Below, piece by piece: positions 2 to 39,094 of a DNA stretch of 64,000 nt; positions within the stretch are counted from its first letter, which is position 1; every line of letters begins with the position of its first letter. Both the position numbers and the translations under genes were made by a program. The stretch is from Pseudomonadota bacterium (GTDB lineage Bacteria; Pseudomonadota; Gammaproteobacteria; Xanthomonadales; SZUA-38). Location: assembly GCA_039033415.1 (NCBI GenBank), contig JBCCCR010000003.1, forward strand, positions 124,001 to 188,000, read 5' to 3'. The notes under the pieces were generated by a model. It made no database searches. It was not told the origin of the DNA and worked only from the letters and a program-made list of their open reading frames with translations.

Positions 2-1051
2 CAGGCAGCCAACGACGGCCAGCTAACGATCATTTATGACGGCGACGGTGCCGGCGCGTACCTGCCGACTCTCGCCAGCAACACCAGCAACCCAAGAATT
101 GTGCTCACCAGTGCAGACGCAGACGAGCAGGCGGTGTTCCGTCGAAGCGGCCGGCTGTCGTATTCGCAGTTCTTCTGGCGATCGATCCTGAACGGCGCAC
201 CCGTGCGGACAGCCCACTTACTAGCACGCCGGGCCATCCAGTTTTCAGCGGGCTCGGTTACGCCGCTTATCGAAGATCAGGGCAACTCGGTTCCGAACGA
301 AATCTTCGACGGCATTGTCGCCAGGTTTTATTCCGTCGGCCGCGGCATCCTGCTCGCCGGCGACGAGCCGGTTGTTGGCAGTATTTCGTTGCCCAATCAG
401 GCTGTCGCCGATTTCGAATCGATCACGGCAAGCGGCGTCACCTCAACCGGCACAATCGAAGAAGTGTTTGCCGTTATTACCCGGCCCGATGGCCAGACCA
501 TCGTTGAATCCCTCTCCGAGCAGGCGCCGGACTATGAGGTCAGCAGCGTCGGGCTGTGCGCCGGCAGCGGCACCTACGAAGTATCGGTCTACGCGGCTGA
601 TACCGACGGTGCGGTTTCCCAGCCTGTCTCCGCCGTTTTAACCCGAGCCGCGCCCTGCGCCGATACCAGTTTCGACCTGGCGGTCACCTCGGTGGAGGCG
701 CCCCGCTTTGTTCCGTTGTCAGATGGATCCACATCCATCACCATCAACGCGACCAATATCGGCCCTGCCACCGTCGCTTCCGCCGTTGTCACGGCCTACG
801 TTTCGAACAATGGTGTCATCGACGCAAGCGACACGGCGGTCGGTATGGTTACGCTTAGCGACGTTTTCTCGCTGAAAGAAAACCTGACCGATTTTGAGGT
901 TCCCCTGCCGTTAAGTGAGTCGACAGTCTATGTCGGCGCCTGCGTCAGCGTGGTTGACGGTGAAGCCAACGCCGGCAATAACTGTTCGACAGGCCGCGCC
1001 GTTCGCGTGGTAAGCGAGGATTTCATCTTCGGTACGGGTTTCGAAGATTAG
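2..1051 (+). CDS. Secreted protein, C13-peptidase-like domain plus CARDB-like domain (5' end outside window)
   Basis: The reading frame is open from base 2, so only the C-terminal part is present. The first ~110 residues resemble the caspase/legumain-like (C13) domain of large bacterial exoproteins: a YDGDGAGAYLP strand, then RIVLTSADADEQA, then an FFW...NG helix and a TPLIEDQGNSVPNE segment. Where related domains have the catalytic cysteine (Y-D-A-C-Q-S-G), this protein reads Y-D-G-D-G-A-G by eye, so it may be inactive. A CARDB/Ig-like domain follows (about residues 230-335), with paired cysteines typical of exported proteins. The last residues, FIFGTGFED, carry the aliphatic-F-x-[DST]-[GS]-F-E ending seen on six other proteins here. 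The C13 assignment is by memory of the fold's motifs and is moderate; coding status is certain. Confidence 0.72.
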   Translation, partial: QAANDGQLTIIYDGDGAGAYLPTLASNTSNPRIVLTSADADEQAVFRRSGRLSYSQFFWRSILNGAPVRTAHLLARRAIQFSAGSVTPLIEDQGNSVPNEIFDGIVARFYSVGRGILLAGDEPVVGSISLPNQAVADFESITASGVTSTGTIEEVFAVITRPDGQTIVESLSEQAPDYEVSSVGLCAGSGTYEVSVYAADTDGAVSQPVSAVLTRAAPCADTSFDLAVTSVEAPRFVPLSDGSTSITINATNIGPATVASAVVTAYVSNNGVIDASDTAVGMVTLSDVFSLKENLTDFEVPLPLSESTVYVGACVSVVDGEANAGNNCSTGRAVRVVSEDFIFGTGFED

Positions 1052-1223
1052 CGTTACAACGCGCACCTAGTTTTCATCCAACCCCGTAACGCGATCCAAA
1101 CGTCAGAGCGCTGCGCCGCCTGGCGGTGCACTTTTCGCTGCAATAGCGACGCATCAAGCTCTTGGTTGACGTTTTCCACCCTGGTCTGCGTAGAACTAGC
1201 TAGGTACAGACCAAGGACTCCCC
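1052..1223. other. Intergenic spacer between two exported-protein genes
   Basis: The 172 bases hold no convincing gene. AAGGA lies seven bases before the ATG at 1224 and is the likely ribosome binding site of the beta-helix gene. I see no clear terminator or promoter hexamers. Confidence 0.5.
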
Positions 1224-3743
1224 ATGCGATTCTTCTTTTTCCTCGTCTGGCTGGCTGCATATGGAGAGGCTGGCGCGGACTCTAAGGGCCTGGTGATCTT
1301 GAATCCGATCGCCGGCATCAACGGCGGCGCCTGTGTCTACACCTCGGTGGCTCAAGCCGTGGCGGACGCCGCGAACGGCGATACGATCATCATCGAAGCC
1401 GGTCAGCACGCGGGCCTGATCGGGGAGATCGATAAGGACCTGACCTTTGTACCCGGGCGCCCCGGGCCACCCGGCGCCACCGGGTGCGAACTGGAAAATG
1501 TTGGGGCCGACTTTTCCACCGTAAGGCTGAGCGGCGATGGCGCAAGCGACGACCCGGTCGGCGGCTTGGTCGAGGTGCTGGATGGCGCCCGGGTTACCTT
1601 CCGGAATCTCTCACTGCAGTCGGCCACAGCGACCAACGGGGGAATCCTGGCTGTCACCAGCGGCGCCCAGGTGGTGCTGGACGGCGTGCAGGTATTCGAC
1701 GGCACAGCGACCCTCAGCGGCGGTTTGGTTTACGTGGCCGGTGGTGCGGCGCAGTCCAGACTCCAGATCCGCGGAAACAGCAATCTTGCCGGCGGCAGCG
1801 TCACGCCGGGCGACGGTGGAGGCATTGCACTGTTCGACGCCAGCCTCAGAGTGGAAGACTCAACCATCGGACTGCTGGGAATGTCGTTGTCCAGCAGCAG
1901 CAACAGCGCCGAGCCGTTTGGCGGTAGCCCGGCGGGAGGTAACCAGGCGGCTGGCGATGGCGGCGGTATCTATGCAAGCGGGTCGACGCTGAGCTTTTTG
2001 GCCGGTAGCCGCTTCACGGAGAACCAAGCCGGCAATGACGGCGGGGGGATCTTTGCAATCAATTCCACAATCTCCGGTGTTGAAAGCACCGTTCGCGGCA
2101 ATACCGCAGCCAACCGCGGTGGCGGGCTGGCGCTCCGCGGCGGCTCAGCGGTGTTTACCGACAGCCTCTACCTCGAAAACGCTACGACCGAATCAGGATT
2201 TGGCTTCGGTGGCGGTGGCCTATTCGGAGCCGATGATGCCGAGCTTCAGCTTACAAGCGTCACGCTGGAACAGAACACCAGCGAAGCTCAGGGTGGCGCG
2301 ATCTGGCTTTCCGAGGCGCAGCTGACCAGCAACGTGAGTAACTTCACCGGCAACAACGCTCCGTTTGGCGGAGCAATCGCCGCCGCGACCGGAGCAATGA
2401 CCATCGAGGGCGGAATGTTTAGCAGCAACGTCGCTCTCGGCTTCGGTGGGGCCATCGCCAGCACGGGATCGACCATAGCGGTCGGGGGAGCAGCCACCTT
2501 TGCCATGAATTCAGCAGCGGACGGCGGAGCGATTTACCAAAACACCACCGATGGGTCTGATCAACTGACCATCGACGAAGCCGTGTTTGTTGATAACGAA
2601 GCTTCAAATCCCGTTGGCCTCACCGGTCGAGGCGGCGCCATCTTTTCAGGGCCTGGAACGGTGGAAATCCATCGATCGCAGTTCGAATCGAACACGGCCG
2701 CCGACGCTGGCGGCGCCGTGTTCCTGCGAGACTCGAACCAAAGCGGCCTAGCGGCGACAATCACCAACTCGGCGTTCGAGTTGAACCGAGCCTCAGACGG
2801 TGCCATGACAGGCACCGGGGGCGGGATTGCGGCGTCTGACGTAAGTTCGCTGGTGATTGCCGATACACGGTTTGTCTTCAACCAGACCGGTCTGGCCGGA
2901 GGCGCGCTCTGGATGGAGAACGTGCCAGCGGGTCTGCTGACCAACGTTCGCTTTGAAACCAACGTAGCGCCCCGTGGCGCCGCCATCTACAGCCGCGACA
3001 GCAGCTACACGGTGGCCACGCAGTTTTCCACCTGCGACCCGTTTGTGCTGGCAGCCAACGAGTACTGCTCTTTGTTTATCACCAACAACGCCCTTGAGTC
3101 TGGTGGCGGAATCTTTATTGACGATGTTGCAAACACGAGCACCATCAGCCTGGACCGCGTGGCGATGATCCGCAACAACTCCAACAGCTCCAGCGCCAGC
3201 GTTGGTACCGCCATCGACGGACAAAGCATGGTGCCATCCTTAGTCACCCTGCAAAACGTGCTGGTGGCGGACAACGGCGCTGACAACACCCAGGACTCGG
3301 CCATTTCGGTGAGCAACAGCCAGCGGCTCCACCTGCGACACGTAACGATGGCCGGAAACGTGGCGAGACCGCTCTGGGCCATAGACCCTCAGGTGGAGGT
3401 GGAGATCACCGAGTCGATCATTTACGTGAATGGCCAGGGACCGCGAATCTCAAATGACGTTGCCTCGTTTGTCCGTAGCTGCAACAACTCGCAGACGCCC
3501 GATTCCGGCGGCCAGTCGATGGGCGGCAATCTGGGAAACCCCAACTTTACGATCACCGCACGGGGTAACTACCGACTCTCAGCCGCGTCGGTGAGCGCAG
3601 ACCAGTGCGCCATCTCCAGCCCGCGAGACCTTGATGGGCTGTTTCGCGCCGGGCCAGATCTAGCCGACCAGGGTGCCTTCGAGCGGGATGGTCAGACGAT
3701 GGGGCCCGATCCGCTTTTCTCGGACGGTTTTGAAATCCCATAG
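1224..3743 (+). CDS. Exported right-handed beta-helix protein with Pmp-like repeats
   Basis: An 839-residue protein with a short signal peptide (MRFFFFLVWLAAYGEAGA) and a start supported by AAGGA seven bases upstream. The body is a long run of GG[AGI][IL] and FxxN/NxA motifs (for example GGGIFAINST, FTGNNAPFGGAIAA, NTAADAGGAVFL), the repeat pattern of polymorphic-membrane-protein and parallel beta-helix proteins. The N-terminal segment VYTSVAQAVADAANGDTI matches the usual cap before such helices. No autotransporter barrel is visible. The protein ends PLFSDGFEIP, a member of the shared C-terminal motif group. The likely role is a surface or secreted adhesin or polysaccharide-binding protein, but no catalytic site is recognisable. 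It follows another motif-bearing gene on the same strand after 172 bases. Confidence 0.85.
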   Translation: MRFFFFLVWLAAYGEAGADSKGLVILNPIAGINGGACVYTSVAQAVADAANGDTIIIEAGQHAGLIGEIDKDLTFVPGRPGPPGATGCELENVGADFSTVRLSGDGASDDPVGGLVEVLDGARVTFRNLSLQSATATNGGILAVTSGAQVVLDGVQVFDGTATLSGGLVYVAGGAAQSRLQIRGNSNLAGGSVTPGDGGGIALFDASLRVEDSTIGLLGMSLSSSSNSAEPFGGSPAGGNQAAGDGGGIYASGSTLSFLAGSRFTENQAGNDGGGIFAINSTISGVESTVRGNTAANRGGGLALRGGSAVFTDSLYLENATTESGFGFGGGGLFGADDAELQLTSVTLEQNTSEAQGGAIWLSEAQLTSNVSNFTGNNAPFGGAIAAATGAMTIEGGMFSSNVALGFGGAIASTGSTIAVGGAATFAMNSAADGGAIYQNTTDGSDQLTIDEAVFVDNEASNPVGLTGRGGAIFSGPGTVEIHRSQFESNTAADAGGAVFLRDSNQSGLAATITNSAFELNRASDGAMTGTGGGIAASDVSSLVIADTRFVFNQTGLAGGALWMENVPAGLLTNVRFETNVAPRGAAIYSRDSSYTVATQFSTCDPFVLAANEYCSLFITNNALESGGGIFIDDVANTSTISLDRVAMIRNNSNSSSASVGTAIDGQSMVPSLVTLQNVLVADNGADNTQDSAISVSNSQRLHLRHVTMAGNVARPLWAIDPQVEVEITESIIYVNGQGPRISNDVASFVRSCNNSQTPDSGGQSMGGNLGNPNFTITARGNYRLSAASVSADQCAISSPRDLDGLFRAGPDLADQGAFERDGQTMGPDPLFSDGFEIP

Positions 3744-7155: not shown

Positions 7156-7184
7156 CCGTCACGACGGGTTGCGCCAAAGAGTCA

Positions 7185-7472: not shown

Positions 7473-10169
7473 CTACTCAAAGCTATCGGAAAACAGTAGG
7501 TCCGCCCGGATGCTGATCGTAAAGATCTGAGGTTGCGAGGTGTCCTGTCCGCCATTGGCGACGCCACCGTTGTCGCTGGCGACCACGGTAAAACTGGAGC
7601 TACCGCTCTCGCCGGGTGCTGGTGTGTAAGTAAGGGTGCCCGCGGCATCGACCGTGGGAGGAACGGTGAACAGCGTTGGGTTGGCCACGCCGGCAACTAG
7701 GACGGTCACTTGTTGGCCCGCCTCGTTAGGTGCACCGGGGTCTAGGCTGGCCCAGTTGCTGACCGTCTGCGGACCGGCGTCTTCGCCGACTGGCGGCGGG
7801 TCGTCAGCGTTCAGTACCGGCGGATCGTTAACCGAATTAACCGTGATGGTAAAAGTCTGGAAGCCCGACACGTTGACCCCGCCGTTGGCCATGCCGCCGG
7901 AGTCTACGACCCGCACATTAAAGGTACTCGTGCCGCTGACGTCCTGGCGCGGGTCATAGATCAGATTCCCCAAGGTGTCGATCGTAGGCAGCACAGAAAA
8001 CATGCCAGGATTAGAGACCGCTGCAACCTGATAGGTAAGCGCAAACTGGTTGCTCTCGTTTGGGCCGGGATCGAAAGCTGACCATCCGGAAACCGTTACG
8101 CCGCTCGGGTCCTCGTTGACCGCAGGCGGATCGGCAGCAACAAAACTCGGCGCGTCATTGACCGGCATGATGTCCAGCGTTACGTTCAGCAGGTTTTCGT
8201 CGCTAGCGAACCCCCCGAGAGCGCCGACCGCGCTGGAGATGTCCACGCTATCACCAGGCACTCGCCAGCGCCCGTCCCACATACGCACCGCTAGGCCGCC
8301 GGGCTGTCCGGAGTAGTTTAACGCCGGCACAAAACGCAGCCAGGCGTCGTTGCCGAGGACAAGTGCAGAAGTGTCGCTGAGGGCGCTCGGCAGGTCCTGC
8401 CAGTCGACGCCGTTGAGGGCATACTGCCATTGGCCCTGACCGGGCGTAGAGGAATCGCCGATGACGCCGACGCCGCCAAACGCATCAACGTCGAGGTAGT
8501 TGAGCGCTACGGTGACGTCTAGTCGGCTGCCGCTGGCGTTGGCATCGTCCTCGAGTTCGTCGAGCAGAAATGAGGTTGCTCCACCGACCCGCAGCGGTGC
8601 CGCGTTGCCGAACACCACGTAAGTCTCGCCTTCATCATCCGCGCTTGGATCAGCGCTATCGGCGCCAATGATCACATCGTCGATGCCGTCGCCGTTAACG
8701 TCGCCGGCGCGGCTGACCGAGCGTCCCGAGCGATCATCAGCGTCGACGCCGTTGAGCACGAAACCATTGCTGCCATCCAGGTCTGCCAGATTGAGGCTGG
8801 CAGGAAAGCCCGAATCGCTGCCAAACACCACGTAGGTCTCGCCTCCATTATTGACACCCGGATTTGCGAGATAGGCGCCAATGATCACATCATCAATGCC
8901 GTCGCCGTTGACGTCGCCAGCGCCATTGACCGAGCGGCCCGACAAGTCATTGGCGTCGATGCCGGTGAGTACAAAGCCGCTGCTGCCGTCCAGATCGGCC
9001 AGATTGAAACTGGCGGGGAAACCCAAATCGGTGCCAAACACCACGTAAGTCTCGCCCTCATTTAGGGCGTTCGAATTCGCGAAGTAGGCGCCAATGATCA
9101 CGTCGTCAATGCCGTCGCCGTTGATGTCGCCAGCGCCGCTAACCGAGCGGCCCGAGCGATCATTAGCCCCAATGCCGTTAAGCAAAAAGCCACTGCTGCC
9201 GTCCAGATCAGCCAGATTGAGGCTTGCAGGAAAACCCGTTGCGCGGCCGAACACGATATAGGTCTCGCCTTCAGAGGTGCCCATCAGATCGGCGAGATAG
9301 GCACCAAGGATCACATCGTCAATGCCGTCGCCGTTGACGTCGCCGGCCCCGCTGACCGAGCGGCCCGAGAAATCACCAGCGTCGATGCCGTTGAGTACAA
9401 AGCCGTCGCTGCCGTCCAGGTCAGCAAGATTCAGGCTGGCGGGGAAACCCGAATCGCTGCCAAATACCACGTAGGTCTCGCCCTCATAGTTAGTGCCGGA
9501 ACCGGCGTAGGGGGCACCAATGATCACATCGTCAATGCCATCCCCGTTGACGTCCCCCGCGCCGCTAACCGAGCGGCCCGAGCGGTCATAGTTGTCAATG
9601 CCGTTGAGGACAAAGCCGCTGCTGCCGTCGAGGCTTGCCAAATTGAGACTGGCGGGAAAACCCGTTGTACGGCCGAACACCACGTAGGTCTCGCCTTCAT
9701 AGTCGGCGCTCTGATCAGCCCCGTAGGCGCCAATAATCAAATCGTCGATGCCGTCACCATTGACGTCACCGGCGCCACTGACGGCGTCGCCAGAGAAGTC
9801 ACTGGCGTCGATGCCTTCGAGCAAAAAACCAGTGCTGCCGTCCAGATCAGCCAGATTCAGACTCGCAGGAAATCCGGTTGCACGGCCAAACACCACGTAG
9901 GTCTCACCCTCATTGCTGGTGCCGGGATCGGCGAGATCTGCGCCAATGATCACATCGTCGATGCCGTCGCCGTTGACGTCCCCCGCGCCGCTGACGGAGC
10001 GGCCGGAAAAATCATTGGCATCAATGCCGAAGAGCACAAAGCCGTTACTGCCGTCCAGCTGACTCAGTTCAATGCTTTCCTGCACGAACGCCGAGCCAGG
10101 AGAAAGTACGGCGGCTATGGCGATAGCCAATGGCCCCTTCCTAAGCTTCTGGCTGCGTGCTCGATTCAT
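7473..10169 (-). CDS. Exported seven-bladed FG-GAP beta-propeller protein
   Basis: The start at 10169 (MNRARSQKL) gives a good signal peptide (LAIAIAAVLSPGSAFVQ); the upstream ATG at 10202 has no binding site. Seven tandem 71-residue repeats follow, each with the calcium-loop motif DVNGDGIDDVIIGA and the strand GETYVVFG, as in integrin-alpha FG-GAP blades, so one closed seven-bladed propeller is predicted. Then come an Ig-like segment (SSTPGQGQWQYALNGVDW) and two cadherin-like repeats (PPAVNEDPSGVTVSGW; PPPVGEDAGPQTVSNW). The protein ends LLFSDSFE. A paralogue with the same architecture is at 28071-30764. A secreted calcium-binding surface protein is likely; no enzyme site is seen. It sits between two gene fragments left by a rearrangement. 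Confidence 0.93.
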   Translation of the reverse strand: MNRARSQKLRKGPLAIAIAAVLSPGSAFVQESIELSQLDGSNGFVLFGIDANDFSGRSVSGAGDVNGDGIDDVIIGADLADPGTSNEGETYVVFGRATGFPASLNLADLDGSTGFLLEGIDASDFSGDAVSGAGDVNGDGIDDLIIGAYGADQSADYEGETYVVFGRTTGFPASLNLASLDGSSGFVLNGIDNYDRSGRSVSGAGDVNGDGIDDVIIGAPYAGSGTNYEGETYVVFGSDSGFPASLNLADLDGSDGFVLNGIDAGDFSGRSVSGAGDVNGDGIDDVILGAYLADLMGTSEGETYIVFGRATGFPASLNLADLDGSSGFLLNGIGANDRSGRSVSGAGDINGDGIDDVIIGAYFANSNALNEGETYVVFGTDLGFPASFNLADLDGSSGFVLTGIDANDLSGRSVNGAGDVNGDGIDDVIIGAYLANPGVNNGGETYVVFGSDSGFPASLNLADLDGSNGFVLNGVDADDRSGRSVSRAGDVNGDGIDDVIIGADSADPSADDEGETYVVFGNAAPLRVGGATSFLLDELEDDANASGSRLDVTVALNYLDVDAFGGVGVIGDSSTPGQGQWQYALNGVDWQDLPSALSDTSALVLGNDAWLRFVPALNYSGQPGGLAVRMWDGRWRVPGDSVDISSAVGALGGFASDENLLNVTLDIMPVNDAPSFVAADPPAVNEDPSGVTVSGWSAFDPGPNESNQFALTYQVAAVSNPGMFSVLPTIDTLGNLIYDPRQDVSGTSTFNVRVVDSGGMANGGVNVSGFQTFTITVNSVNDPPVLNADDPPPVGEDAGPQTVSNWASLDPGAPNEAGQQVTVLVAGVANPTLFTVPPTVDAAGTLTYTPAPGESGSSSFTVVASDNGGVANGGQDTSQPQIFTISIRADLLFSDSFE
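8577..10067 (-). repeat. Seven tandem 213-bp units inside the FG-GAP gene
   Basis: Seven in-frame units of 71 codons (10067 down to 8577) are strongly similar at DNA level. The calcium-loop segment near each GATCACATCGTC recurs about every 213 bases (about 8668, 8881, 9094, 9305, 9519, 9732, 9947). The seventh unit diverges over its last ten codons. In the paralogous gene the repeats differ in length and sequence, so this copy appears recently homogenised or expanded. Confidence 0.9.
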
Positions 10170-10295
10170 TGTTTTCGTCTCTACGCGTGTTGCAAGCATC
10201 ATACGAAGCTCGTGGCCAGAATTCTGTGACGAGTATGTAACGGTTTTTCAGCGATGGATAGCCAGGTCGATACTGAGGCGCAATCCGCCTGGGCG
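10170..10295. other. Upstream region of the FG-GAP gene
   Basis: Contains the likely leader of the minus-strand FG-GAP gene. A weak purine run (AGAGACG) lies about eight bases before its ATG. No clear promoter hexamers or hairpins stand out. Similarity to the cpeT-like gene begins at about 10296. Confidence 0.4.
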
Positions 10296-10463: not shown

Positions 10464-13400
10464 TTAGAGCTCCTCGAAACCGCTCAGGAATATCGTCTCT
10501 GGTGCAAAGCTCACCGAAAAGGTTTGAGTCATCGAGCTGTCCTGACCACCATCAGCTGTTCCACCGTCGTCCACAAGCTGCGCTGCGACCGTGGCGCTTC
10601 CCTGGTTGCCGCTGAGCGTGAAACTCAGCGTCCCGTCATTGCTGATCGCAACTGAATCGATTACGCCGGCAGGATCGGCCTGGACGTTGAGCTGGAAGGT
10701 CAAATTCTGGCTGACTTCGTCAGGACCGCCGGCACTGATGCCAGTTGCCCAAGCAGGCAGGGTCTGAGTCAGGGGTTGACCGTCAACGATGGTGACATCC
10801 GGGCCCGCAGCAAAACTTGGCGCGTCATTTACGGGCTGAACGGTGATTGTCACCGTACCCGTTGCGGTGATGAAGCCGTCAGTGATGTCGTAAGTAAAGC
10901 TCGCAACGCCGACCGCGTCGGCCGCAGGCTGGAAGTCAAAGTCGCCATTGGCGCTCAAGGTCACCTGCCCGCCTACGCCAGACGCGGCAAAGGTCCCAAC
11001 AGTAGTCACCGTGATCACCTCGTTACCCTCGTCTCCGGCGTCAGCACCGTTACCGTTGTCGTTCAGCACGTTGCCAACCACGCCGGAATCCTCAAGCGTC
11101 GAAAAGTCGTCTGGCAACGCTGCGAGGCTGTCGGTCGAGCCGGTAACGGTGATTTCCACCGTCTGGGTGGCAGACGTCGAAGAGTTTTCAGCGGTGTAGC
11201 TGAAGGATACGACCGCGTTTTGCCCAGCGTTTAAGTTCTCGAACGTGCTTCCCGGATCATAGGTAAAGCTGCCGTCGGCGGCGACGTTCAGCGTTCCTCC
11301 GGCCATTGGCGCCGTATCACTACCTACCGCGGGCTGCCCATCGATTGCGGTGATGGTCAGGGCGCCGACCACCGCAACGTCGTTCTGGAGCAGGCCCGTT
11401 GCGGCATCGACGGTAAGGGTTGCGTCCTCATCCACGGTATAGGTGTCTTGGGTCAGCTGCGGCGCGACAAACAGCTGAGTCACGGTAGCGTCGCCAACGG
11501 CGGGCGTATCGGGATCGTCCGACACGGTCGTGGGAAGATTGGTGGCGGTCAGCATGACCTGCGCGCTCGTTTGCGTGACCCCCATGCCCAAGGGATCGGT
11601 GACGTTCGCATCCCAGGTGATGGTGACGGTTCTACCGGGGTCAACCTGCCCAAGATCTACACCGACATCGGTATCGCCGGGGCGGTTACCCAGCAGCACC
11701 ATGCCAAAATCTGAGGTAACCGACCCGAGAACCAAAGTCGTCTCCGCGCCGCCCAGAGATACCAGGGTGCCGCATAGTTCCGGCGTATTGCCGTTGTTGC
11801 TCAATACCGCCGTGTAGCGAATGGTGTCTCCACCGCCGGCGACCCCGTCGCCATTGTCGACGGCGATTGCGTCCGTGAGCGTCAAACTGACGTCTCTCAG
11901 TATGACCGAGGTCACCGTCGGATCGCTAAAGCTTGTGGCGTCTAACGGGTCGTCGAAACTGCTTGTAAACTCCGCTGTCGTGAGCAGGCCGGTTGTGCTG
12001 ACCTCGGTAACGGCGCCGGGCGCTGCGGTGATCGTACCCTGGAACGTGATCGTGGTTGTTGCTCCCTCAAACACGGTACCAAGGGCGACTTCGACTCGGC
12101 TGTCCCCAGCCGTATTGCCAGTGAGAATGGTACCCTGACCGGCGGTTACCGAACCGACATCAAGATCGATTCCGGCCCCGAGATCAAAGGCCGCGAGCGT
12201 GCTGGTCAGGTCACCGACGCCCGATCCTACACGCGCCGTGTACTGCAAGATATCGCCGGAGCTCACGACCAGGTCGTTGTCGACATCGGTAAGCAGCACC
12301 CCCTCGAGTGTTGCGGTCCGGCTGGAGTCAACTTCGACCCAGGCGAGGGCCGTGTCGGAGCCCGTCAACGTGAGGGTAAGCGCGCCGATGTTGGTGAAGT
12401 CCGCCCCGCTTCCGGCAGTTGGCGTAAAGTCTCGGAAGTCTACTGTGGTGATGCCGCCGGCGAGGCTGGGGAAAATAACCACCGCCGCCCCACTAAAGGA
12501 CGAGACATTGGAGTCGTCGGTGAAAGCATTCAGCTCAAAATCAACCGCGCCATCGAAGGCGATCTCCAGACGATCGAGCAGGCCGCCGCTGGTCAGATCA
12601 ACCCCGCCGAGGCCATCTCCATCCACCGTACCAAAATCTCCATCGGGTCCGTCCCATACCAGCGATACCGAATCGGTGGCGTCCTGACCCGTAACGACAA
12701 TCCGACCACCCGTGAGATCGACATTCGTGATGTTGGCAAGGTTTGCGGCGGTGATGTCGATCTCGCCTCCAAGCGCGGCGCCGTTCACCAACGTCACGCC
12801 AGCGTTCGCGCCGTTGGCGGACAAAGAAGCCGAAATCTCGAACTGATCGACCGGCAATCCCCGGTGAGGCACCTGGTATAGCTGCACGTCATCAAAATCG
12901 ACGCCGTCGTTAGGGAGCAATTCATCGTCGTGCTGCTGCAGTTTTAGCTGACTGAGGGAGGACAAATCCTGCGCCGGTGAAGCGGTCCGCAAGACCTGGG
13001 AAACATCCACGGGCCCGGTGGATCGCCAGGTGCCAAACGTGCCATCGTTCCAGTCGAACAGCAGCTGATAGGCGTCAGTATCCTTACCCCGCACGAAGAC
13101 ACCGTCCTCGGGATTGTCTTCATCCCCAACGTTAAAGTAGTTGGTTTCGAAAAAGAGCTTGTCCCGTGAGGGTCTAATCGCTAAACCATCAAAGGTCAGC
13201 ACCAGCTGGTTTTCATCCAGATTTCCGGCGTCAAGGGAGGCGGCCTGAACGCCGCTACTGGCGTTACCGCGGGCAAACTGCACCCTTTCATCCAGCGTCG
13301 CCACGTGCGACCAGCCGATAATGCCGCCGATTGGCGCGAAAGACTCATTTTGGTAGATCAGCTGCGGCCCTACGCTCTCGAAGTCTTCGTTCACGGGCAG

Positions 13401-28070: not shown

Positions 28071-30764
28071 ATGACAAAACGACATCATCGTCGCCGACTC
28101 GCGCTAACTGTTTCGGCAGCTCTCGCCACAAGCGCTCCGCTTCCTGCGCAGGAGCTTGTTGAGCTTGGCCAACTTAATGGCACAAACGGTTTCGCAATCA
28201 ACGGAGAGGGTACCGATCACTTTTCTGGCCGCGCGATCAGTGGCATCGGAGACATCAACGGCGACGGATTTGATGACCTCGTCATCGGCGCACCGCGGGG
28301 AGATAACGGCAGCAACGACTATCGAGGTATTTCCTACGTGGTTTTCGGCAGCGACTCCGGCTTCCCTGCCAATCTGGAGCTTGCGACGCTCAACGGCACC
28401 AATGGATTCGCTCTGCTCGGGTTGAATCCCGACGACGAATTCGGCCATACGGTCGGCGGCGCCGGGGACGTCAACGGGGATGGTCTGAATGATCTGTTGA
28501 TCGGTACTGAGTTCGCTAACCTCAGCTTCGTGTTGTTCGGGAGAGAGACACCTTTCTCTCCACGCAGTTTCCTATCCGAAATCACTGCGAATGAGGGTTT
28601 CCGCATCACGGGCGCCGGCTCTGGCGATGCCGCAGGTGGCGCAGTCAGCATTGCTGGTGACGTTAACGGTGATGGCTTTGACGACATACTAATCGGCGCC
28701 GCTTTTGCCGACCCCAATGGAAGTATCAACGCTGGCGCGAGCTACATCGTGTTCGGCACCGACGCGGGTTTTCCGTCCAATCTCGACCTTGGCACACTCA
28801 ACGGATCTAACGGCTTTGTGATGAACGGAGAGGCAGCTGGAGATTTTGCTGGCCTCGCCGTTAGCGGTGCCGGCGACATCAATGCCGATGGTTTTGATGA
28901 TCTGCTGATCGGCGCACAAAACGCGTCGCCGACAAACGGGACGGCTGCCGGCATAACCTACGTTATCTTTGGTTTTGATGATTTTGCGATCGATCTCATC
29001 AGTCTCGCCAACGTTGGCCGTGGCGGTGGCACCAGCAGTGTCGGTCTTACTATTGACGGGCTTGCGCCCTTTGACCTTCTTGGAATCGCCGTGAGTGACG
29101 CGGGAGATATCAACGGCGACGGCTTTGGAGATGTGTTGCTCGGCGCTGACCCGGCTGGCGGATCGGGCCCTGGCACCAGCTATGTCGTGCTGGGCTCCGA
29201 CCAGCAGTTTCCATCAAGCCTGGATCTTAGCTCGCTCGACGGTTCCAACGGGTTTACGATCAACGGCGTCGCCTCTGAAGACGGCGCTGGGCTTTCCGTC
29301 AGCAGCGCAGGTGATGTCAATGGAGATGGCCTCGACGATTTTCTGGTCGGTGCCCGACGAGCAGATCCGGTTGGCAAGACGAATGCTGGCATCACTTACC
29401 TAATCTATGGCACCACTGCCGGCTATCCCGCCACGCTGGATTTGGCTTCCGTCGACGGCGGAAACGGTTTCGCGATCAACGGCGTCGCCGGCGCTGATTA
29501 TGCAGGCCGTGCGGTAAGCGGTGGGGGCGACATCAACGGCGATGGCCTTGACGACCTTTTCATCGGCGCACCCTACGCCGATTCGAGCGGAGTCAATCGC
29601 AACGGAAGCAGCTACGTGTTGTTTGGCAACAGCGCTCCGCTAACCCGAGCCGACTCAGCAACACTGTTCTCTCAGCTGGAGGACGAAACCGCACCACAGG
29701 GAAGTCCGCTGGAAAGCACCATCATAAACGCCTACCTCGACGCCGATCCATTTGCCGGGATGGCGGTGATTGCCGATTCCAGCACCCCAGGCCAAGGCAT
29801 CTGGCAGTACAGCGCTGACGGCAGCAGCTGGAGCAGTGTCCCCGGTACCGTGAGTGATCAGACGGCGCTGGTTCTCTCGGCAACTGACCTGCTGCGTTTC
29901 GTTCCAGAACCCGACTTTGAGGGCGTGCCCGGACCACTGAGCGTGCGCCTGTGGGACGGACGCTGGCGACAGCCCGGTACCGATGTGGATATCACGCTGG
30001 CGACCGGAGCTTTCGGCGGGTTCTCCCGCGACGAGGAGCTGCTCGACGTCTCGGTCGAGATCATTGGGATCAACGATGCCCCATCCTTCAGCGCCAGCAA
30101 CCCACCGGCGGTCAATGAAGACCCGGGGGGCGTCACCGTATCCGGATGGGCCAACTTTGATCCGGGCGCGCCCGGCGAAAGCGGCCAGTTCCCGCTGGTT
30201 TACCAGGTTGAAAACATCTCTAGCCCGGGCCTCTTCTCGGTGCTGCCCACTATCGGCACGCTGGGCAATCTGGTCTATAACGCCGCCCCGGACGTCAGCG
30301 GAACAAGCACCTTCGATGTCCGCGTGGTCGACAATGGCGGTATCGCCAACGGCGGTGTCGACGTGTCCGGTTTTCAAACCTTCACGATCACCGTCAATCC
30401 GGTCAACGATCCACCGGGCTTCAGCGCGGAAGATCCGCCGGTGGTTGCGATCGATGCCGGACCACAGACGGTTGCTGGCTGGGCCACCTTTGACCCTGGT
30501 GCGCCGGACGAGCAAGGTCAGCAGGCGAGCTATCAGGTGCTGGGGGTTGAAGATGCTGGCTTGTTTGCGACTCCGCCCTCGGTGGACAGCAGCGGCAATC
30601 TCACCTATACCGCTACGCCCGGTGTCGAAGGCTCCACTGAGTTCACGGTCCAAGTGAACGACAGCGGCGGCACCGCCAACGGGGGAACCGATACCTCCAG
30701 CGCACAGACGTTTGTGATCCGCATCGGTGCCGAAACCCTCTTTGCCGATAGTTTCGAGGACTAA
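28071..30764 (+). CDS. Exported seven-bladed FG-GAP protein, paralogue
   Basis: An 897-residue protein with a signal peptide (LALTVSAALATSAPLPAQ) and AAGGGA before the start. It has the same plan as the protein at 7473-10169: seven FG-GAP blades with calcium loops such as GDINGDGFDDLVIGAP and GDVNGDGFDDILIGAA, an Ig-like segment (STPGQGIWQYSADGSSW), then two cadherin-like repeats (PPAVNEDPGGVTVSGW; PPVVAIDAGPQTVAGW). The end TLFADSFED carries the shared C-terminal motif. The blades are more diverged and vary in length (the second is shortened, the fourth lengthened). One loop reads DINADGFDD and another DINGDGFGD, so calcium binding may be weaker there. Likely a secreted or surface protein of unknown partner. 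Confidence 0.93.
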   Translation: MTKRHHRRRLALTVSAALATSAPLPAQELVELGQLNGTNGFAINGEGTDHFSGRAISGIGDINGDGFDDLVIGAPRGDNGSNDYRGISYVVFGSDSGFPANLELATLNGTNGFALLGLNPDDEFGHTVGGAGDVNGDGLNDLLIGTEFANLSFVLFGRETPFSPRSFLSEITANEGFRITGAGSGDAAGGAVSIAGDVNGDGFDDILIGAAFADPNGSINAGASYIVFGTDAGFPSNLDLGTLNGSNGFVMNGEAAGDFAGLAVSGAGDINADGFDDLLIGAQNASPTNGTAAGITYVIFGFDDFAIDLISLANVGRGGGTSSVGLTIDGLAPFDLLGIAVSDAGDINGDGFGDVLLGADPAGGSGPGTSYVVLGSDQQFPSSLDLSSLDGSNGFTINGVASEDGAGLSVSSAGDVNGDGLDDFLVGARRADPVGKTNAGITYLIYGTTAGYPATLDLASVDGGNGFAINGVAGADYAGRAVSGGGDINGDGLDDLFIGAPYADSSGVNRNGSSYVLFGNSAPLTRADSATLFSQLEDETAPQGSPLESTIINAYLDADPFAGMAVIADSSTPGQGIWQYSADGSSWSSVPGTVSDQTALVLSATDLLRFVPEPDFEGVPGPLSVRLWDGRWRQPGTDVDITLATGAFGGFSRDEELLDVSVEIIGINDAPSFSASNPPAVNEDPGGVTVSGWANFDPGAPGESGQFPLVYQVENISSPGLFSVLPTIGTLGNLVYNAAPDVSGTSTFDVRVVDNGGIANGGVDVSGFQTFTITVNPVNDPPGFSAEDPPVVAIDAGPQTVAGWATFDPGAPDEQGQQASYQVLGVEDAGLFATPPSVDSSGNLTYTATPGVEGSTEFTVQVNDSGGTANGGTDTSSAQTFVIRIGAETLFADSFED

Positions 30765-30902: not shown

Positions 30903-31142
30903 ATGACGGAGAAAACGCGCGAGGTGCGCCGTTTGGCGCTGCTGGTCGGTTGCGCTGTCGGGGCGGTCGCTCTAGCTGAAACGTACACCTACGATGACGC
31001 TGGCCGATTGACCGGTATCGTCTACGACGATCCGGACCGGACCTTGATTCGGCTGGAGCTGGATGATGCGGGCAACCTGGTCAGCCAGTCGCGGTCGACG
31101 GAGTTTGTTTTTATCGACAGCTTTGAGGAGTCGTCACCATGA
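30903..31142 (+). CDS. Minimal YD-repeat exported protein (79 residues)
   Basis: A very short protein with an N-terminal signal (LALLVGCAVGAVALA, cleavage before ETYTY), one YD/RHS repeat (TYDDAGRLTGIVYDD, then LDDAGNLVSQS) and the shared ending FVFIDSFEESSP. Its stop codon overlaps the start of the giant YD protein (ATGA at 31139-31142), so the two are translationally coupled. It may be a reduced relative of a long YD protein or a small partner of the next one. Its real coding status is supported by signal peptide, repeat, motif and overlap together. Confidence 0.8.
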   Translation: MTEKTREVRRLALLVGCAVGAVALAETYTYDDAGRLTGIVYDDPDRTLIRLELDDAGNLVSQSRSTEFVFIDSFEESSP

Positions 31143-34100
31143 GGGGCGCTCCGGCAATTTTGGCTTCGCGAGTTCTTGTGGTCGCACTGCTGGTTCTTTG
31201 TCAGATACCGATAGCTTCGGCGCAGGACGCCTATCGCGTCAGGGACCTTCGGCCCGGTCCGAACAGCTCGACGCCGGGTGGACCATTCGAGGTCTCAAAC
31301 GGGCTCCTATACTTCTCAGCGAACACCGGGACCGACGGCAGCATTGTCGTCGATCTTTGGCAAAGTGACGGGACAGCGCTGGGTACGCGCATCGCGATGG
31401 ATTCCGTGGGTAGTCAAAACCCCAAATTTCTGACGGATGTCGATGGTGAGCTCTACTATGTGGCCACCGAATCCAATACCGGACGCGAACTGTGGCGACT
31501 GGTCGGCGGCAATCCACAGCGCGTGACCGATATCCGCAGCGGCACCCTGTCTTCCAACCCCGAGGGTATCGTTAACGTCAACGGTACCGTCTACTTCACC
31601 GCCATCAGCGACGCGTTTGGACGGGAGCTCTATCGCACCGATGGCGTAGGCGCGGTCCAGGTCGTCGACCTGACGCCCGGGGATGAAGACACCGAATTTG
31701 CAAACATCGGGACTGTCCCTAATTTTGTCGCTTTGGGTGACCAGCTGCTGTTCGTTGCTGACGACGGAGTAAGTGGACGTGAACTGTGGCGCACCCAGGG
31801 AACGGCAGCGACCACGGTGCGTTTGACCGATTTCGCTCCGGGCAGCGAATCGACATTGTCTTACCGAAACGACCCGGATGCCGGGGACAGGTTTGAAAAC
31901 CTGTTGACCGTCGGTAATCAGGTTTTTTTTTCGGGCACCCTGGCTCCTAATAACCACTTTCTCGGTGTCACCGACGGAACGGAAGCTGGAACACGCGTGC
32001 TCCGGGAGTTTGGCAGAGCACGCCCCAACGATTTCGCCGAACTCAACGGCCGGCTGCTTTTTTCGGCAGACGAGCTCTGGCAGAGCGACGGTACCATCGC
32101 CGGCACGACGGAATTAGCCGACATCAGTCTTTTCGGTCCGTCTTTTCCAACCTTTCTCACCACCGTCGGCAACTTTACCTATTTCACAGTTCTCGGCGAC
32201 AGCGGTGACGAATTTTGGCGCACTGACGGAACCAGCGCTGGCACGATTCTGCTGGCGCCCATAGGCACCGGTAAGCCCATTGGACTTGACGGCGTCGCGT
32301 ACTTTTCGGCCGCGGATGACCAATTCGGCCAGGAGCTTTGGGCCAGCAACGGCATGCCTTTAGGTACCATTGGCCTGACCGATATTAACCCCGGTCCTGG
32401 CAGCGCCGTGTTTAACCAGCTAGGTGCCGTGAACGGTCGGGTGTTCATGGCTGCTGACGACGGAGTCAGCGGGGAGGAGCTTTGGGCCATCCGGGTGGGT
32501 GAAGTCACCGAAACCGACAGCGCGGCAAATTTCGAGCTGAGCGGCAGCACGGGCGACCCAATCAATACGTTCACCGGCGAGCTTTTTGAGAGTCCCGCGC
32601 CGGACATCGATCTCGGCGGACCGCTGCCGATCATCTTCAGCCGTTACTACGCCTCGGGCCTCAACGCGGACAGCGTCGTTGGCTCAATGGGCCGGAACTG
32701 GCGTCACTACTATGAATGGAATCTGATCCGCAGCCCGGGTACGGCGGAGATCATCACGCCCCGCGGCCGACGACTTCAATTTCTCGACGAAAATGGCACC
32801 TGGAATCTGGTGGGCGTCTCGGTCGACCAACCCTGGCAGCTGGTCACCGAAGGTAACCGCCTGGTGCTGGGCGATCCCGCCACTCAGTTGCTGTACGTTT
32901 TCGACGCCAACGATCGTCTCACCCAGATCCAGAATGTTAGCGGCAACACCCTCACGCTCACCTACAGTGGTGCAGGATTGCTAACCAACGTCGCCGACGG
33001 CCTCGGCCGCAGCCTGACGTTTTCCCAGCAGCCTGGCGGGCTGCTGACTCAGCTTGAAGATGACAACAGCAGAGTCGTCGCGTTCGGTCATACAGGCGAG
33101 GATCTGACCACGTTGACGGACGTGAGGGGCGGACAGACCCGCTACAGCTATACCGGTGCGGGGCTGCTCACCAGCATGGAACTGCCCGAGGGCAACGTTC
33201 GTTTCAGGCAAACCTGGGATGACCAGCAGCGGGTGTCGACGCAAAGCGACGACGACGGCAACGTGATGAGCCTGACGTACGAAGGCGCGCAAACGCGCAT
33301 CGTTGATCCGTTGCTGAACGAGCAGGTGCATGAGCATAACGGCGGCGGCCAGCTCACCGGGATCACCGACGCGGAAGGCGAAACCACGGGCTACGTGAGC
33401 GACGGCGACGGGCGCAGGGCCGGCGTGGTAGATCGTCTCGGCGGCACGTCCTCGTTCCAATACAGCCCTGACAGCGGCCTGTTGGAGCAGCTCACGCGCG
33501 CTGACGGCCAGTCCATCAACTATCAGGAGGCCGACTATGTTGTGCGCGGCATCACGTTCCGCAACTACACGTCCATCACCTACCCCGACGGCACCAGTAT
33601 TGGCTTTGGCCGAGACGGCGCCGGGCGCCTGACTTCGCTGACGGACCAGGCGGGTGGCGTCTGGACATTCTCAAGAAACGCCGCCGGCCAGCTGCTCAGC
33701 TCGACCAATCCGCTCGGCGGGACCACCATCCAGACCTTCAACCCAGACGGGACCCTTGCAACACGCACGGATCCTGCGGGCGATACGACCTCGTTCTCCT
33801 ACGATTCCCTGCGTCGGCTCACCGGGATCACTTATCCGGGCGCTGACTCGGTCACGCTGACGCTTAACGACGCTGATCAGCTTACGGCCGTTACCGACGC
33901 ACGCGGAAATACAACCAGCCTCAGCTATGACGCCAACGGCCGCCTGACGGGTTTTATCGATCGCGCCGGCGAAGCCCGTTTGTATGGCTATGACAGCAGC
34001 GGACGCCTGACCAGCGTCCAGCGTCCAGAGGGTCACGTTGTCAGTCTGGACTATGACAGCCGAGGACTCCTCGCGGAACTCGAGGACAATCTCGGTGAGC

Positions 34101-36322
34101 GCATGAGCTTGGACTACAACGCGTTAGGTCAGCTCACGGGCATCTCCGACAGCGCCGCAAACCGCACGAGCCTCAGCTATGACGAGGAAGGCGGACTGAC
34201 CGAGATTCGAGACCCAGATAGTGCGCACGCGCAGCTCGGCCTCAACGCCACGGGCGGGCTCAGCAGCATAGCAACGGGCGCGAATGCACCCACGTCGGTG
34301 AGTTTCGACAGCAACGCACGTCCGATCGGAGAGCAGCTGCCGAGCGGCAGATCAACTTCCCGGACCTTTGACGCCCAGGGGCGGGAAAATCAGGTCCAGA
34401 CCGGCCCGCTGCAGACCAGCCGAGACGTCGACGCGCTGGGGCGCGCCACCAGCGTCACGAATTCAGCAGGCATCAGCGCGACGGCGCAATACGACAATCA
34501 GGGCCGCCTGACGTCATCAACCGACCGGCTGGGCCAGACCACCAGCTACAGCTATGACAGCCGCAGCAGAGTCTCCGGCGCGACCTTTCCCGGCGGCGCT
34601 GGCTCGGTCAGCTACACCTACGACGCCAACGGCAACCTGACGCGCGCACTGTATTCCGACGGTACAGACATCAGCGCCACGTTTGATGCCGAAGATCGAT
34701 TGGTTTCTGGTTCTGGGCTTTCGCTTGCCTACGACGGAAACGGCGAGGTCATTGAATCGAACGGCCTTCAGATGACCCGGCGCTCCGACGGCCGACTGCT
34801 CACCGTTGGCTACCCCGGCGGCATGACCGTCAGTTATACCTACAACGGTCGAGGCCTACTCGACACCGTCAGCGACAGCATGGGCAACAGCGCCAGCTTC
34901 AGCTACACCCCGGCGGGACGTCGCAGCGCAATCACCCGATCGAACGGCGTCACGACCAGCTACGAATACGACGCCTCCGGACGTCTTACGCGACTCCGGG
35001 TCGCTAGCAGCGGGACACAAAAAGGCGACACCACAAAGGGTGGCGGAAGCTTCCTCGATCGACGGCTGGCATACGACGCCGACGCGCGACTGTCCCGCGT
35101 GACAGGGCTTGAGCCACTGGCTCCTAACTTCGATTCCCTGCCTGATTTGGATTTCTCGTTTAATGCCGCGGGACAAATCGCCGGCAAAGTTTTTAACCCC
35201 CTTGGCCAGGTCACCGAAGCTGACGAAACGCAGTACGGCTGGGATTTGGCAGGGCGCGTGCGGCAAATCTCAGATGCAGCCCAAACGGTCGATCTGGACT
35301 ACGACGCTACGAACCGGATGATCGGCATGAGCCAGGGGGGACAGCAGAACGGATTCCGCTGGAACTACGCGACCGGCAGGCCAAGCCTGGCGGTTCAGTC
35401 TGTTGACGGGCAGGACTGGTTTAACTGGACCAGCACCCCAGAGGGTGAGCCGCTGTGGCGCAGCAACGCCGACGGATCAGGTGTCTGGTTTCCACATTAT
35501 GATGAATTGGGGAACGCGGTGCTTGCCACCGACGAAAACGGCACCGCGGGCAGTCAGGCGAAATTCGACGCTTTCGGAAAAGTGCTGGCCGGCGCACCCT
35601 TGTGGCCGCTGGGTCCGCGCGCTCGGCAGGGCGGCCTGTCGCTCACCGGCGACATCTACAGCGACGCGCCCGGCGAATACGTCCACAGCGGCGCCCGGAG
35701 CCGCATCAAGCCACGGCAAGGCGGAGACTTTGACCCGACGGACCAGAACGCATACAGCATCGGCCGCTTCGGTTCGCCGCTGCCGGAAATCACCGACGAC
35801 AGCAGCAGGTCAATCAGCTTGAGCGAAATTGTATTTGGTGAGAACCAGCTGATAAACAGTCTCGATCGAAGTTTTGAGTTAGGCCTATCGAGGGACCTGC
35901 TGTTCGGCGACGATCCCACACTCAAGCTTACCAGCAGCTTCGGCCTGGCCGACGATCCCTTTCTCATTGCAAACAGGATCACGCCGGAGATCTGCACCCC
36001 AAACAGTCGTGCTAGCATCGAAAAGGAAATTAAGCGCCTTGAAGCCCGTCAGGCGACGCTTGATCAGCTCGGCCGAGATGTTGCAGAGGAAGCTGTCCGC
36101 AACCTAATTCGGATGAATCTCTCCGACACGCAGGTTCTCTTCCCGCTCACCCCGGAAGCCGTCCTTGTAGAGGTACTCTCGGACCCGCTGGGTATTCTCA
36201 GAACCTACCTCATTCTGCAGGAATCAACTCGCGTGCAGAATTTGCTCAACGAACTGAACCTGGAGCTGAAACAGCTCGATTCCATCGTGCCGGAGTTGCC
36301 GGCAATCGTCATCATTTGCTGA
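31139..36322 (+). CDS. Giant secreted YD-repeat (RHS-like) protein
   Basis: A 1727-residue protein with a signal peptide (VLVVALLVLCQIPIASAQ). The first ~450 residues are ELWxSDGT-type propeller repeats (GRELWRTQGTAATTVRLTDF; DEFWRTDGTSAGTILL). A DUF6531-like entry domain follows (DPINTFTGELFESPAPDIDL; IIFSRYYASG), then about 25 YD repeats (SYDSLRRLTGITYPGADS; SYDSRSRVSGATFPGG). The usual RHS core end (YDPxxGRFLSxDP) is degraded to SGARSRIKPRQGGDFDP. The C-terminal ~190 residues are unique, with a helical, charged region (SIEKEIKRLEARQATLDQL). No known toxin motif and no immunity gene downstream are seen, so a polymorphic toxin role is unproven. Unlike its neighbours it lacks the FE-type ending. 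Confidence 0.92.
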   Translation: MRGAPAILASRVLVVALLVLCQIPIASAQDAYRVRDLRPGPNSSTPGGPFEVSNGLLYFSANTGTDGSIVVDLWQSDGTALGTRIAMDSVGSQNPKFLTDVDGELYYVATESNTGRELWRLVGGNPQRVTDIRSGTLSSNPEGIVNVNGTVYFTAISDAFGRELYRTDGVGAVQVVDLTPGDEDTEFANIGTVPNFVALGDQLLFVADDGVSGRELWRTQGTAATTVRLTDFAPGSESTLSYRNDPDAGDRFENLLTVGNQVFFSGTLAPNNHFLGVTDGTEAGTRVLREFGRARPNDFAELNGRLLFSADELWQSDGTIAGTTELADISLFGPSFPTFLTTVGNFTYFTVLGDSGDEFWRTDGTSAGTILLAPIGTGKPIGLDGVAYFSAADDQFGQELWASNGMPLGTIGLTDINPGPGSAVFNQLGAVNGRVFMAADDGVSGEELWAIRVGEVTETDSAANFELSGSTGDPINTFTGELFESPAPDIDLGGPLPIIFSRYYASGLNADSVVGSMGRNWRHYYEWNLIRSPGTAEIITPRGRRLQFLDENGTWNLVGVSVDQPWQLVTEGNRLVLGDPATQLLYVFDANDRLTQIQNVSGNTLTLTYSGAGLLTNVADGLGRSLTFSQQPGGLLTQLEDDNSRVVAFGHTGEDLTTLTDVRGGQTRYSYTGAGLLTSMELPEGNVRFRQTWDDQQRVSTQSDDDGNVMSLTYEGAQTRIVDPLLNEQVHEHNGGGQLTGITDAEGETTGYVSDGDGRRAGVVDRLGGTSSFQYSPDSGLLEQLTRADGQSINYQEADYVVRGITFRNYTSITYPDGTSIGFGRDGAGRLTSLTDQAGGVWTFSRNAAGQLLSSTNPLGGTTIQTFNPDGTLATRTDPAGDTTSFSYDSLRRLTGITYPGADSVTLTLNDADQLTAVTDARGNTTSLSYDANGRLTGFIDRAGEARLYGYDSSGRLTSVQRPEGHVVSLDYDSRGLLAELEDNLGERMSLDYNALGQLTGISDSAANRTSLSYDEEGGLTEIRDPDSAHAQLGLNATGGLSSIATGANAPTSVSFDSNARPIGEQLPSGRSTSRTFDAQGRENQVQTGPLQTSRDVDALGRATSVTNSAGISATAQYDNQGRLTSSTDRLGQTTSYSYDSRSRVSGATFPGGAGSVSYTYDANGNLTRALYSDGTDISATFDAEDRLVSGSGLSLAYDGNGEVIESNGLQMTRRSDGRLLTVGYPGGMTVSYTYNGRGLLDTVSDSMGNSASFSYTPAGRRSAITRSNGVTTSYEYDASGRLTRLRVASSGTQKGDTTKGGGSFLDRRLAYDADARLSRVTGLEPLAPNFDSLPDLDFSFNAAGQIAGKVFNPLGQVTEADETQYGWDLAGRVRQISDAAQTVDLDYDATNRMIGMSQGGQQNGFRWNYATGRPSLAVQSVDGQDWFNWTSTPEGEPLWRSNADGSGVWFPHYDELGNAVLATDENGTAGSQAKFDAFGKVLAGAPLWPLGPRARQGGLSLTGDIYSDAPGEYVHSGARSRIKPRQGGDFDPTDQNAYSIGRFGSPLPEITDDSSRSISLSEIVFGENQLINSLDRSFELGLSRDLLFGDDPTLKLTSSFGLADDPFLIANRITPEICTPNSRASIEKEIKRLEARQATLDQLGRDVAEEAVRNLIRMNLSDTQVLFPLTPEAVLVEVLSDPLGILRTYLILQESTRVQNLLNELNLELKQLDSIVPELPAIVIIC

Positions 36323-37659: not shown

Positions 37660-37675
37660 CCAGATTTCGGTGACC

Positions 37676-39094
37676 CTACTCGAATCCTGAAGCAAAAATC
37701 AGTCCGTCGACGTCCACAGCCCCGTCGCTCTGGATCTGAATAAATTTCACCGAATAGCCATCCCACCAGTCGTCGCGCCCAGCGGCGCAGGTGGGTCGCT
37801 CGCCCACCCGCCAGGTCAGCGTGTTGTTGCCGGCCACCAGCCAGGCCGGATCGAGCGGAAGGCGGAAACTTTTCCAGTCGCGCCACTGGCCGCTGACGCA
37901 GTTTTGCTCAGCGTATTCATACGGATTCACCTCCAGCTCCGGGCCACCGTTGATGCTCAGACGCACCTGTCCTCGCAGCGGCTGGGCCAGCTGGCCAAAC
38001 AACACCGGGCTGTTGATTTCAGCGGGGAGGTTAACGTTGACCGTGACCGTATCCCCAATCGGTCGATTGCCGTTGGCCTGCAGATAAACCACGTCGTCAG
38101 CGGTGTATGCCTGATAGTTGCCCACTACCGGTCCGTCAAATCGAATGTTGTCCCAGTGGAACGTGTACGTATCGGTGTTGCCGTGTCCCACCGGGGTATA
38201 TGCATGGGTCTTGAACAACACCAGCCCACGCGTGAAAGGAAGGCCATCCGGCAGGTTGACCATTAAGTCGTCGAAGCCACCGTCAGCGGTTTCAATACCC
38301 CACACAATCCGATCGTTCTCCAGCCGGATCCGCATCGTTCGTCGGATACGACGGTCGGAGGTAGCCGGATCTGTGGGATGCAGTGCGTTCCAATAGGCCC
38401 AGTCATATTCAAAGAACTGACGCTCGTCCACCTGCCAACCGTAGGGATCAAGATCGCCGCTACCCACCCGCACGTGGCGCACCAGCTCGCTGAAGTTGAG
38501 CACGATCCGGTCCAGCGGATAGCGCTCGTCGATGGCGGACTGCGGTGAGGCTGCTCCCACCCGAAGCTGGTCCCGCGGCGTGATCAGCACCTCCCACCAG
38601 ACACGCTGGCCGTGGCCGAGGTTGATATTGACGTCAAATTCCAGCGTACCGCCGTCGCTGAAATCGAACTCCTGGCGCGGCCAGAAGGCGCTGTTGGAGT
38701 AGGCCGTCACCTCACCCAGCGCCGACATCATGTGGTTCTTGCAGAGGAAGAAACTCTCGTCCGGCCGATCGCCGTTTGAGGTCTGGCTGGTGTTGACCAG
38801 ATGCTGCGGCAGCGGGGACACGGCCGGGTTGGGCCCATCACAATTCATGTTGTGGTCTGCAAGAAAACCGACAAAGTTTTTGCTGAACTGCTCCTGCGGA
38901 TGATTCCGGTGGGTCACCACGTAGTCGAAGGTTCGAGGCAACAGATCCTGTGAGGGAGCCGGTGGATCGCCGTCGAAGGTCTCTTCAAGCGCCCACTGGA
39001 CTGGCTGGGCAAAGGCACTGAACGTTGCGGCGAAAAAAAGCAGGACCAGCGACCGGTAGACGCGGGCCCGTTGACCATGAGTGGAAATGGACAC
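37676..39094 (-). CDS. Exported protein with jelly-roll-like domains
   Basis: A 472-residue protein with a signal peptide (SLVLLFFAATFSAFAQ). Residues ~35-290 look like a concanavalin/laminarinase-type jelly roll (EETFDGDPPAP; GGTLEFDVNINLGHGQRVWW; TYTFHWDNIRFDGP), and a second beta domain follows (~300-450, AGNNTLTWRVGERP). No ExDxE glycosidase signature is visible, so binding rather than catalysis is likely. The end VDVDGLIFASGFE carries the shared C-terminal motif. Cysteines are paired, as expected outside the cytoplasm. Function unknown; glycan binding is inference. Confidence 0.85.
   Translation of the reverse strand: MSISTHGQRARVYRSLVLLFFAATFSAFAQPVQWALEETFDGDPPAPSQDLLPRTFDYVVTHRNHPQEQFSKNFVGFLADHNMNCDGPNPAVSPLPQHLVNTSQTSNGDRPDESFFLCKNHMMSALGEVTAYSNSAFWPRQEFDFSDGGTLEFDVNINLGHGQRVWWEVLITPRDQLRVGAASPQSAIDERYPLDRIVLNFSELVRHVRVGSGDLDPYGWQVDERQFFEYDWAYWNALHPTDPATSDRRIRRTMRIRLENDRIVWGIETADGGFDDLMVNLPDGLPFTRGLVLFKTHAYTPVGHGNTDTYTFHWDNIRFDGPVVGNYQAYTADDVVYLQANGNRPIGDTVTVNVNLPAEINSPVLFGQLAQPLRGQVRLSINGGPELEVNPYEYAEQNCVSGQWRDWKSFRLPLDPAWLVAGNNTLTWRVGERPTCAAGRDDWWDGYSVKFIQIQSDGAVDVDGLIFASGFE

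Follow-up and report, generated by a model that had tools for sequence, protein, structure and literature searches.

It is not settled how a type II secretion system (T2SS) chooses its substrates. A linear signal common to them has been considered absent, the known signals being described as structural or composite (PMC7949064). In PelI, a specific signal is provided by a 9-residue loop, which interacts with both GspC and GspD (PMC7949064). Some T2SS substrates depend on the PDZ domain of GspC, and VesB needs the PDZ domain of EpsC, its own Ig fold carrying the information (PMC12369372). Our study revealed a short ending, [LIV]-F-x-[DNS]-[GS]-F-[ED], on exported proteins of one bacterial order, and we give a probability of roughly one half to the reading that it is a linear export or sorting tag read by a second T2SS of these bacteria, here called T2SS-A. 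Literature searches turned up neither the motif nor a linear T2SS signal. A seven-residue tail that is carried by >100 proteins of one genome, and is nearly confined to genomes with a T2SS whose GspC bears a PDZ domain, offers a portable and testable peptide. Even with another reader it would be an unnamed sorting tag from which surface or secreted proteins could be annotated throughout an order, for which PEP-CTERM and T9SS domains provide the precedent elsewhere.

The window, that is the whole stretch of 64 000 nt that was analysed (C3:124001–188000 of a 6.42 Mb assembly), carries seven such endings, all of which had been listed in the initial annotation and were recovered in place by translation and six-frame searching. 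A pattern of [LIVMFT]F, one or two residues and [DSTN][GSR]F[ED], run over the window in six frames, gave 7 matches, which were the same seven endings and none besides. On the forward strand, IFGTGFE (1025–1045) is followed by D and a stop codon (1049–1051) at the end of ORF 2–1051; LFSDGFE (3714–3734) is followed by IP and the stop of protein 1224–3743, which has Beta_helix and POMP repeat matches; LFADSFE (30738–30758) is followed by D and the stop of the FG-GAP/cadherin-like protein 28071–30764; and VFIDSFE (31107–31127) is followed by ESSP and the stop of a 79-aa YD-repeat ORF (30903–31142, RHS_repeat). On the reverse strand, LFSDSFE (7476–7496) directly precedes the stop of protein 7473–10202 (FG-GAP, Big_9 and cadherin-like), IFLSGFE (10473–10493) is followed by EL and the stop of a 1415-aa Big_9/Cadherin_4 protein (10464–14711), and IFASGFE (37679–37699) directly precedes the stop of a 472-aa exported protein (37676–39094) that has no Pfam family.

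All seven endings lie in real ORFs and close to the stop, at a distance of 0–4 residues instead of the 0–5 first given. Every complete member has a signal peptide, as had been claimed, ORF 2–1051 being cut by the window edge. For the ORF first described as 7473–10169 the tag was confirmed and the start can be 10202 instead of 10169. The C13-like label of ORF 2–1051 was not recovered, as that piece had no Pfam family above cut-off; the same tag ends C13-peptidase/NHL proteins elsewhere in the genome (L031:13225–17034 and L061:11555–15436). The window proteins are unrelated in kind (beta-helix, FG-GAP/cadherin-like, Big_9/Cadherin, RHS/YD and one without a Pfam family), the two FG-GAP/cadherin-like proteins being related copies. 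The view that the tail belongs to no named family was borne out in Pfam and NCBIfam, neither of which placed a model on it in the seven window proteins (NCBIfam to E = 10). The 79-aa ORF consists of a signal peptide, one YD repeat and the tag, and it overlaps by four bases the start of 31139–36322 (forward strand), which encodes a 1727-aa DUF6531/RHS protein that is itself without a tag. At 39475–41658 (forward strand) the window encodes a protein that combines a TIR domain at its N-terminus with PD40 beta-propeller repeats.

The genome sample comprised 40 stretches (~784 kb: C1, most of C2 and parts of C3) plus the window, 848 kb altogether, in which a simple codon-usage caller called 625 genes (242 151 residues). 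The strict pattern [LIVMF]F.[DNST][GS]FE matched 36 times in these genes, and 32 of the 36 matches lay ≤8 residues from the C-terminus. Within-protein shuffles gave an expectation of 0.275 matches overall and 0.005 at the C-terminus, so that the comparison with shuffled ends, which the initial annotation had proposed, came out clearly in favour of enrichment. Genome-wide, a DNA pattern gave 242 matches versus 32 for the reversed pattern, and a stricter one gave 157 versus 3 for the reversed control. Since variants such as SYED, GLE and GFD were also seen, the true number of tags is probably higher. Among 34 tails found by F..[GSR]FE, a pattern that itself prescribes F and E (the shuffles show the excess to be real), the residue ahead of F was L, I or V in 33, the positions after the first F were usually A/R/S, then D/S/N, then G (25) or S (9), and D or E stood two residues ahead of the aliphatic residue in 18. 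Every synonymous codon is in use for the F, G and E of the tag, which indicates that selection acts on the peptide. The ending is very probably a real, selected and order-specific tag on exported proteins.

The tag is abundant in one order only, the Lysobacterales/Xanthomonadales (Proteobacteria), where it reaches up to about 150 copies per genome and is patchily distributed. Elsewhere in the phylum, 389 genomes from other orders gave ≤7 matches of the strict pattern each, close to the control, and a class survey agreed. Over 299 genomes of the order the counts were strongly bimodal. Families f1, f3, f4, f5, f6, f10 and f11, most of f8, part of f9 and a few genera of f2, f7 and f12 were tag-rich, and the main parts of f2 and f12 had 0–4 matches. 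The tag-rich genomes include Dokdonella (Lysobacterales), and C-terminal tails were seen in other families of the order as well.

A search for a co-occurring system, also proposed in the initial annotation, yielded T2SS-A as the best candidate, with a link that is correlative and has exceptions. A secretin model scan of 21 tag-rich and 17 tag-poor genomes found two different GspD proteins above cut-off in all 21 tag-rich genomes; the tag-poor genomes had one kind of GspD, none (G004) or two of which one was Xcs-like (G060). From its gene order, we take this second T2SS of G060 to be the Xcs of Xanthomonas. A GspD tree, in which the misframed rows L142, L163 and L165 were disregarded, resolved a clade A drawn from tag-rich genomes only and a clade B (Xps-type) drawn from tag-rich and tag-poor genomes, with the Xcs-like secretin of G060 as a distant outgroup of clade A. 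Clade A follows the families and is therefore old and vertically inherited, having been lost and not newly acquired. The Xps-type T2SS was rejected as the sole reader, as its GspD is present in tag-rich and tag-poor genomes alike and cannot explain the tag distribution.

The T2SS-A genes run in the order gspC-gspD-gspE, often adjoining rhlB-, trxA- and rho-like genes (by eye), and gspF lies close to ftsE/ftsX-like genes in several genomes. GspD scored 532.8 bits at G000:C8 (TIGR02517, cut-off 351.35), and none of the pseudopilins GspG–K or GspL/M of T2SS-A was seen in the 20 kb around gspCDE. GspC-A has T2SSC (HR; PF11356, 93.5 bits) and PDZ domains, the PDZ_2 match being 22.4 bits in the source genome’s own GspC-A, which is under the cut-off of 27, and 43.5 bits in G149. 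A structure model of GspC-A predicted a TM helix, an HR domain and a PDZ-like fold. The genomes that encode GspC-A also have an Xps-type GspC-like protein, which gave no PDZ match. The residue after the glycine of the GspC PDZ loop is V/M in 10 of 11 tag-rich and Y/F in 6 of 6 tag-poor GspC proteins, a post hoc difference, uncontrolled for descent, that was set aside as evidence. T2SS-A has tagged genes (GFD variant) within a few kb of it in three Dokdonella genomes; as these may be one locus by descent, the tagged neighbours amount to one modest observation. At L146:595–5537 (Dokdonella) and L147:11988–17192 (G031), a tagged or near-tagged gene beside T2SS-A is followed by two genes conserved in both loci, labelled [34] (~190 aa) and [33] (~900 aa).

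GspC-A was used as the probe for T2SS-A over the 299 genomes, presence being defined as E below 1e-35 and tag-rich as at least 8 strict matches. Among genomes ≥90 % complete, 65 had both tag and GspC-A, 4 the tag only, 17 GspC-A only and 163 neither, and the same split by genus was 27, 2, 5 and 46; these counts take relatives as independent, and T2SS components were the only genes profiled against the tag. In the same order, f2 gave 2, 0, 0 and 76 and f12 gave 10, 0, 1 and 65. The large concordant loss in main f2 may go back to a single event, and so may that in main f12; Fisher P values therefore make the support look stronger than it is, and any other gene lost at the same nodes would fit just as well. 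T2SS-A is retained in genus g11 (f9; 15 genomes ≥90 % complete), where the median tag count is 3, and in G081, G175 and G229, each of which has 0–1 tags. The link between tag and T2SS-A is strong but imperfect and correlative, with shared losses among relatives. T2SS-A homologues are widespread in other Gammaproteobacteria, in which the tag is absent, and so T2SS-A alone does not bring the tag; the machine is old, and the tag would have come later.

Tags also occur without T2SS-A. G062 and G096 (f7, 97–98 % complete) have 19 and 18 matches, many of them true C-termini, and lack GspC-A and GspD-A; G121 (f7) is another genome with tags and without T2SS-A, and G047 and G117, both fragmented assemblies, lack GspC-A and GspD-A. 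The three f7 genomes favour an alternative that we regard as possible, if somewhat doubtful, in which the tag is a sorting or surface-retention signal of another machine of the order, or of the Xps-type T2SS, and T2SS-A was lost in the same lineages. It would also fit the small number of independent losses, the presence of T2SS-A in tag-poor genera, the profiling of T2SS components alone, and the kinds of protein that are tagged, which include a ScyF-like protein and one in which the NCBIfam choice-of-anchor Q domain (NF041518; 31 bits, cut-off 25) lies directly ahead of the tag. We take this domain, from its model name, to be one that precedes interchangeable anchoring tails, and both kinds of protein carry anchoring tails elsewhere. 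However, no other candidate machine was found, and in f2 and in f12 the tag and GspC-A coincide almost without exception.

If T2SS-A is the reader, Sec would export the tagged protein via its signal peptide and the protein would fold in the periplasm, after which the flexible tail would dock on T2SS-A (genes gspC-gspD-gspE and gspF); the PDZ domain of GspC-A would be the most plausible docking site. The docked protein would then pass the GspD secretin and reach the cell surface or the medium, one of which is the likely final location of tagged proteins. The assignment of the PDZ domain as the docking site is tentative. The fullest version of this reading, in which the tail is a linear T2SS substrate signal bound by the GspC PDZ domain, borne by >100 proteins per genome in one order, served by an ancestral T2SS and amounting to the first general T2SS sequence code, is better called possible than probable. 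The initial suggestion, a tag for sorting or secretion whose reader is encoded elsewhere in the genome, fits best and is partly supported: it agrees with the C-terminal enrichment, the restriction to exported proteins, the many unrelated folds, the lack of a transmembrane helix and the choice-of-anchor domain directly ahead of the tag in one protein, and its link to T2SS-A is correlative. None of the outcomes that the initial annotation had listed as refuting it was seen, for the tag was enriched at C-termini, occurred on exported proteins only and was not explained by a homologous terminal domain.

A simple heuristic found a signal peptide in 26 of 32 tagged proteins. Among the other six, three had signal peptides by eye, one had its signal peptide just upstream of the called start, one was cut by the window edge and one had a doubtful start. 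The absence of a membrane helix and of a basic tail, noted at the outset, held in 34 tagged proteins, with 0–8 residues after the motif and no predicted helix past residue 40. Their domains include NHL/C13-peptidase, G8/CEMIP-like, DUF5650 repeats, DUF5060, carboxypeptidase-regulatory-like, FG-GAP, beta-helix and trypsin-like. Three tagged proteins of 470–506 aa (L031:17930–19351, L052:6132–7544 and L061:7050–8570) have a common N-terminal NDFRIT/DDFRIT stretch, and the first, which was the one scanned, had no Pfam or NCBIfam match.

The position of the tag varies. It is sometimes placed between signal peptide and domain (L010, L209 and L231) or between domains (L054, L090 and L096), and tandem C-terminal tags occur in family f8 (L186 and L189), for example IFLDGFEGDVIFKNGYD and LIFCHGFDVVPTDLIFRDGFEDRNC. 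This indicates that the tag acts as a linear motif for which the C-terminus is preferred and not required, and it is what a linear docking motif would be expected to show. Such copies, behind the signal peptide or between domains, are difficult to reconcile with a structural tail, whether a capping strand of the last domain, as the initial annotation had offered, or a polar end guarding against tail-specific periplasmic proteases. Many of the last domains are beta-sandwiches and hydrophobic residues alternate in the tail, yet the tail also follows beta-helices, propellers, FG-GAP, DUF5650 repeats and a trypsin-like domain, with variable linkers, and its F, G/S, F and E are near-invariant beyond what charge or hydrophobicity needs. 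In an AlphaFold2 model of the 28071–30764 protein (3-row alignment, low overall confidence), the last strand is predicted at 879–885 and the tag as low-confidence coil past it, which would fit a free tail and proves little. A structural role, the fold-capping strand included, is therefore improbable. That the tail is the remnant start of a longer C-terminal domain, retained by descent and not by function, is very improbable, for although proteins elsewhere bear longer stretches of the type DGFESGD..W, no such extension was present in any tagged C-terminus examined, the proteins with the tail show no other relationship to one another, and the peptide motif is conserved while its synonymous codons vary freely.

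As with LPXTG, PEP-CTERM, GlyGly-CTERM and MYXO-CTERM, a single genome carries the same short C-terminal signature on dozens or even hundreds of exported proteins that are unrelated to each other. Unlike these, the tag lacks both a transmembrane helix and a basic tail, as a rule 0–8 residues follow it before the stop, and the tag may sit N-terminally or internally; none of their NCBIfam models matched the seven window proteins (E ≤ 10) or ten more (E ≤ 0.01). The type A signal of the T9SS (Por_Secre_tail, TIGR04183) is likewise a helix-free C-terminal signal on many unrelated exported proteins of similar kinds, but it is a folded domain (a model of 72 positions) and the tag has 7–9 residues. 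TIGR04183 was absent from 16 of 17 tagged proteins scanned, and the one borderline match (23.9 bits, cut-off 23) covered residues 619–675, ahead of the tag. The Xcs T2SS of G060 resembles T2SS-A in having the secretin nearest to clade A as an outgroup and a GspC with a weak PDZ match, but its long branch, its complete operon (L157) and the 0–2 tag matches in genus g38 mean that it is not the same tag system. OutC–PelI and EpsC–VesB share with T2SS-A exported folded substrates and a PDZ-bearing GspC, but their signals are structural or composite (PMC7949064), whereas the tag is one linear tail on >100 proteins.
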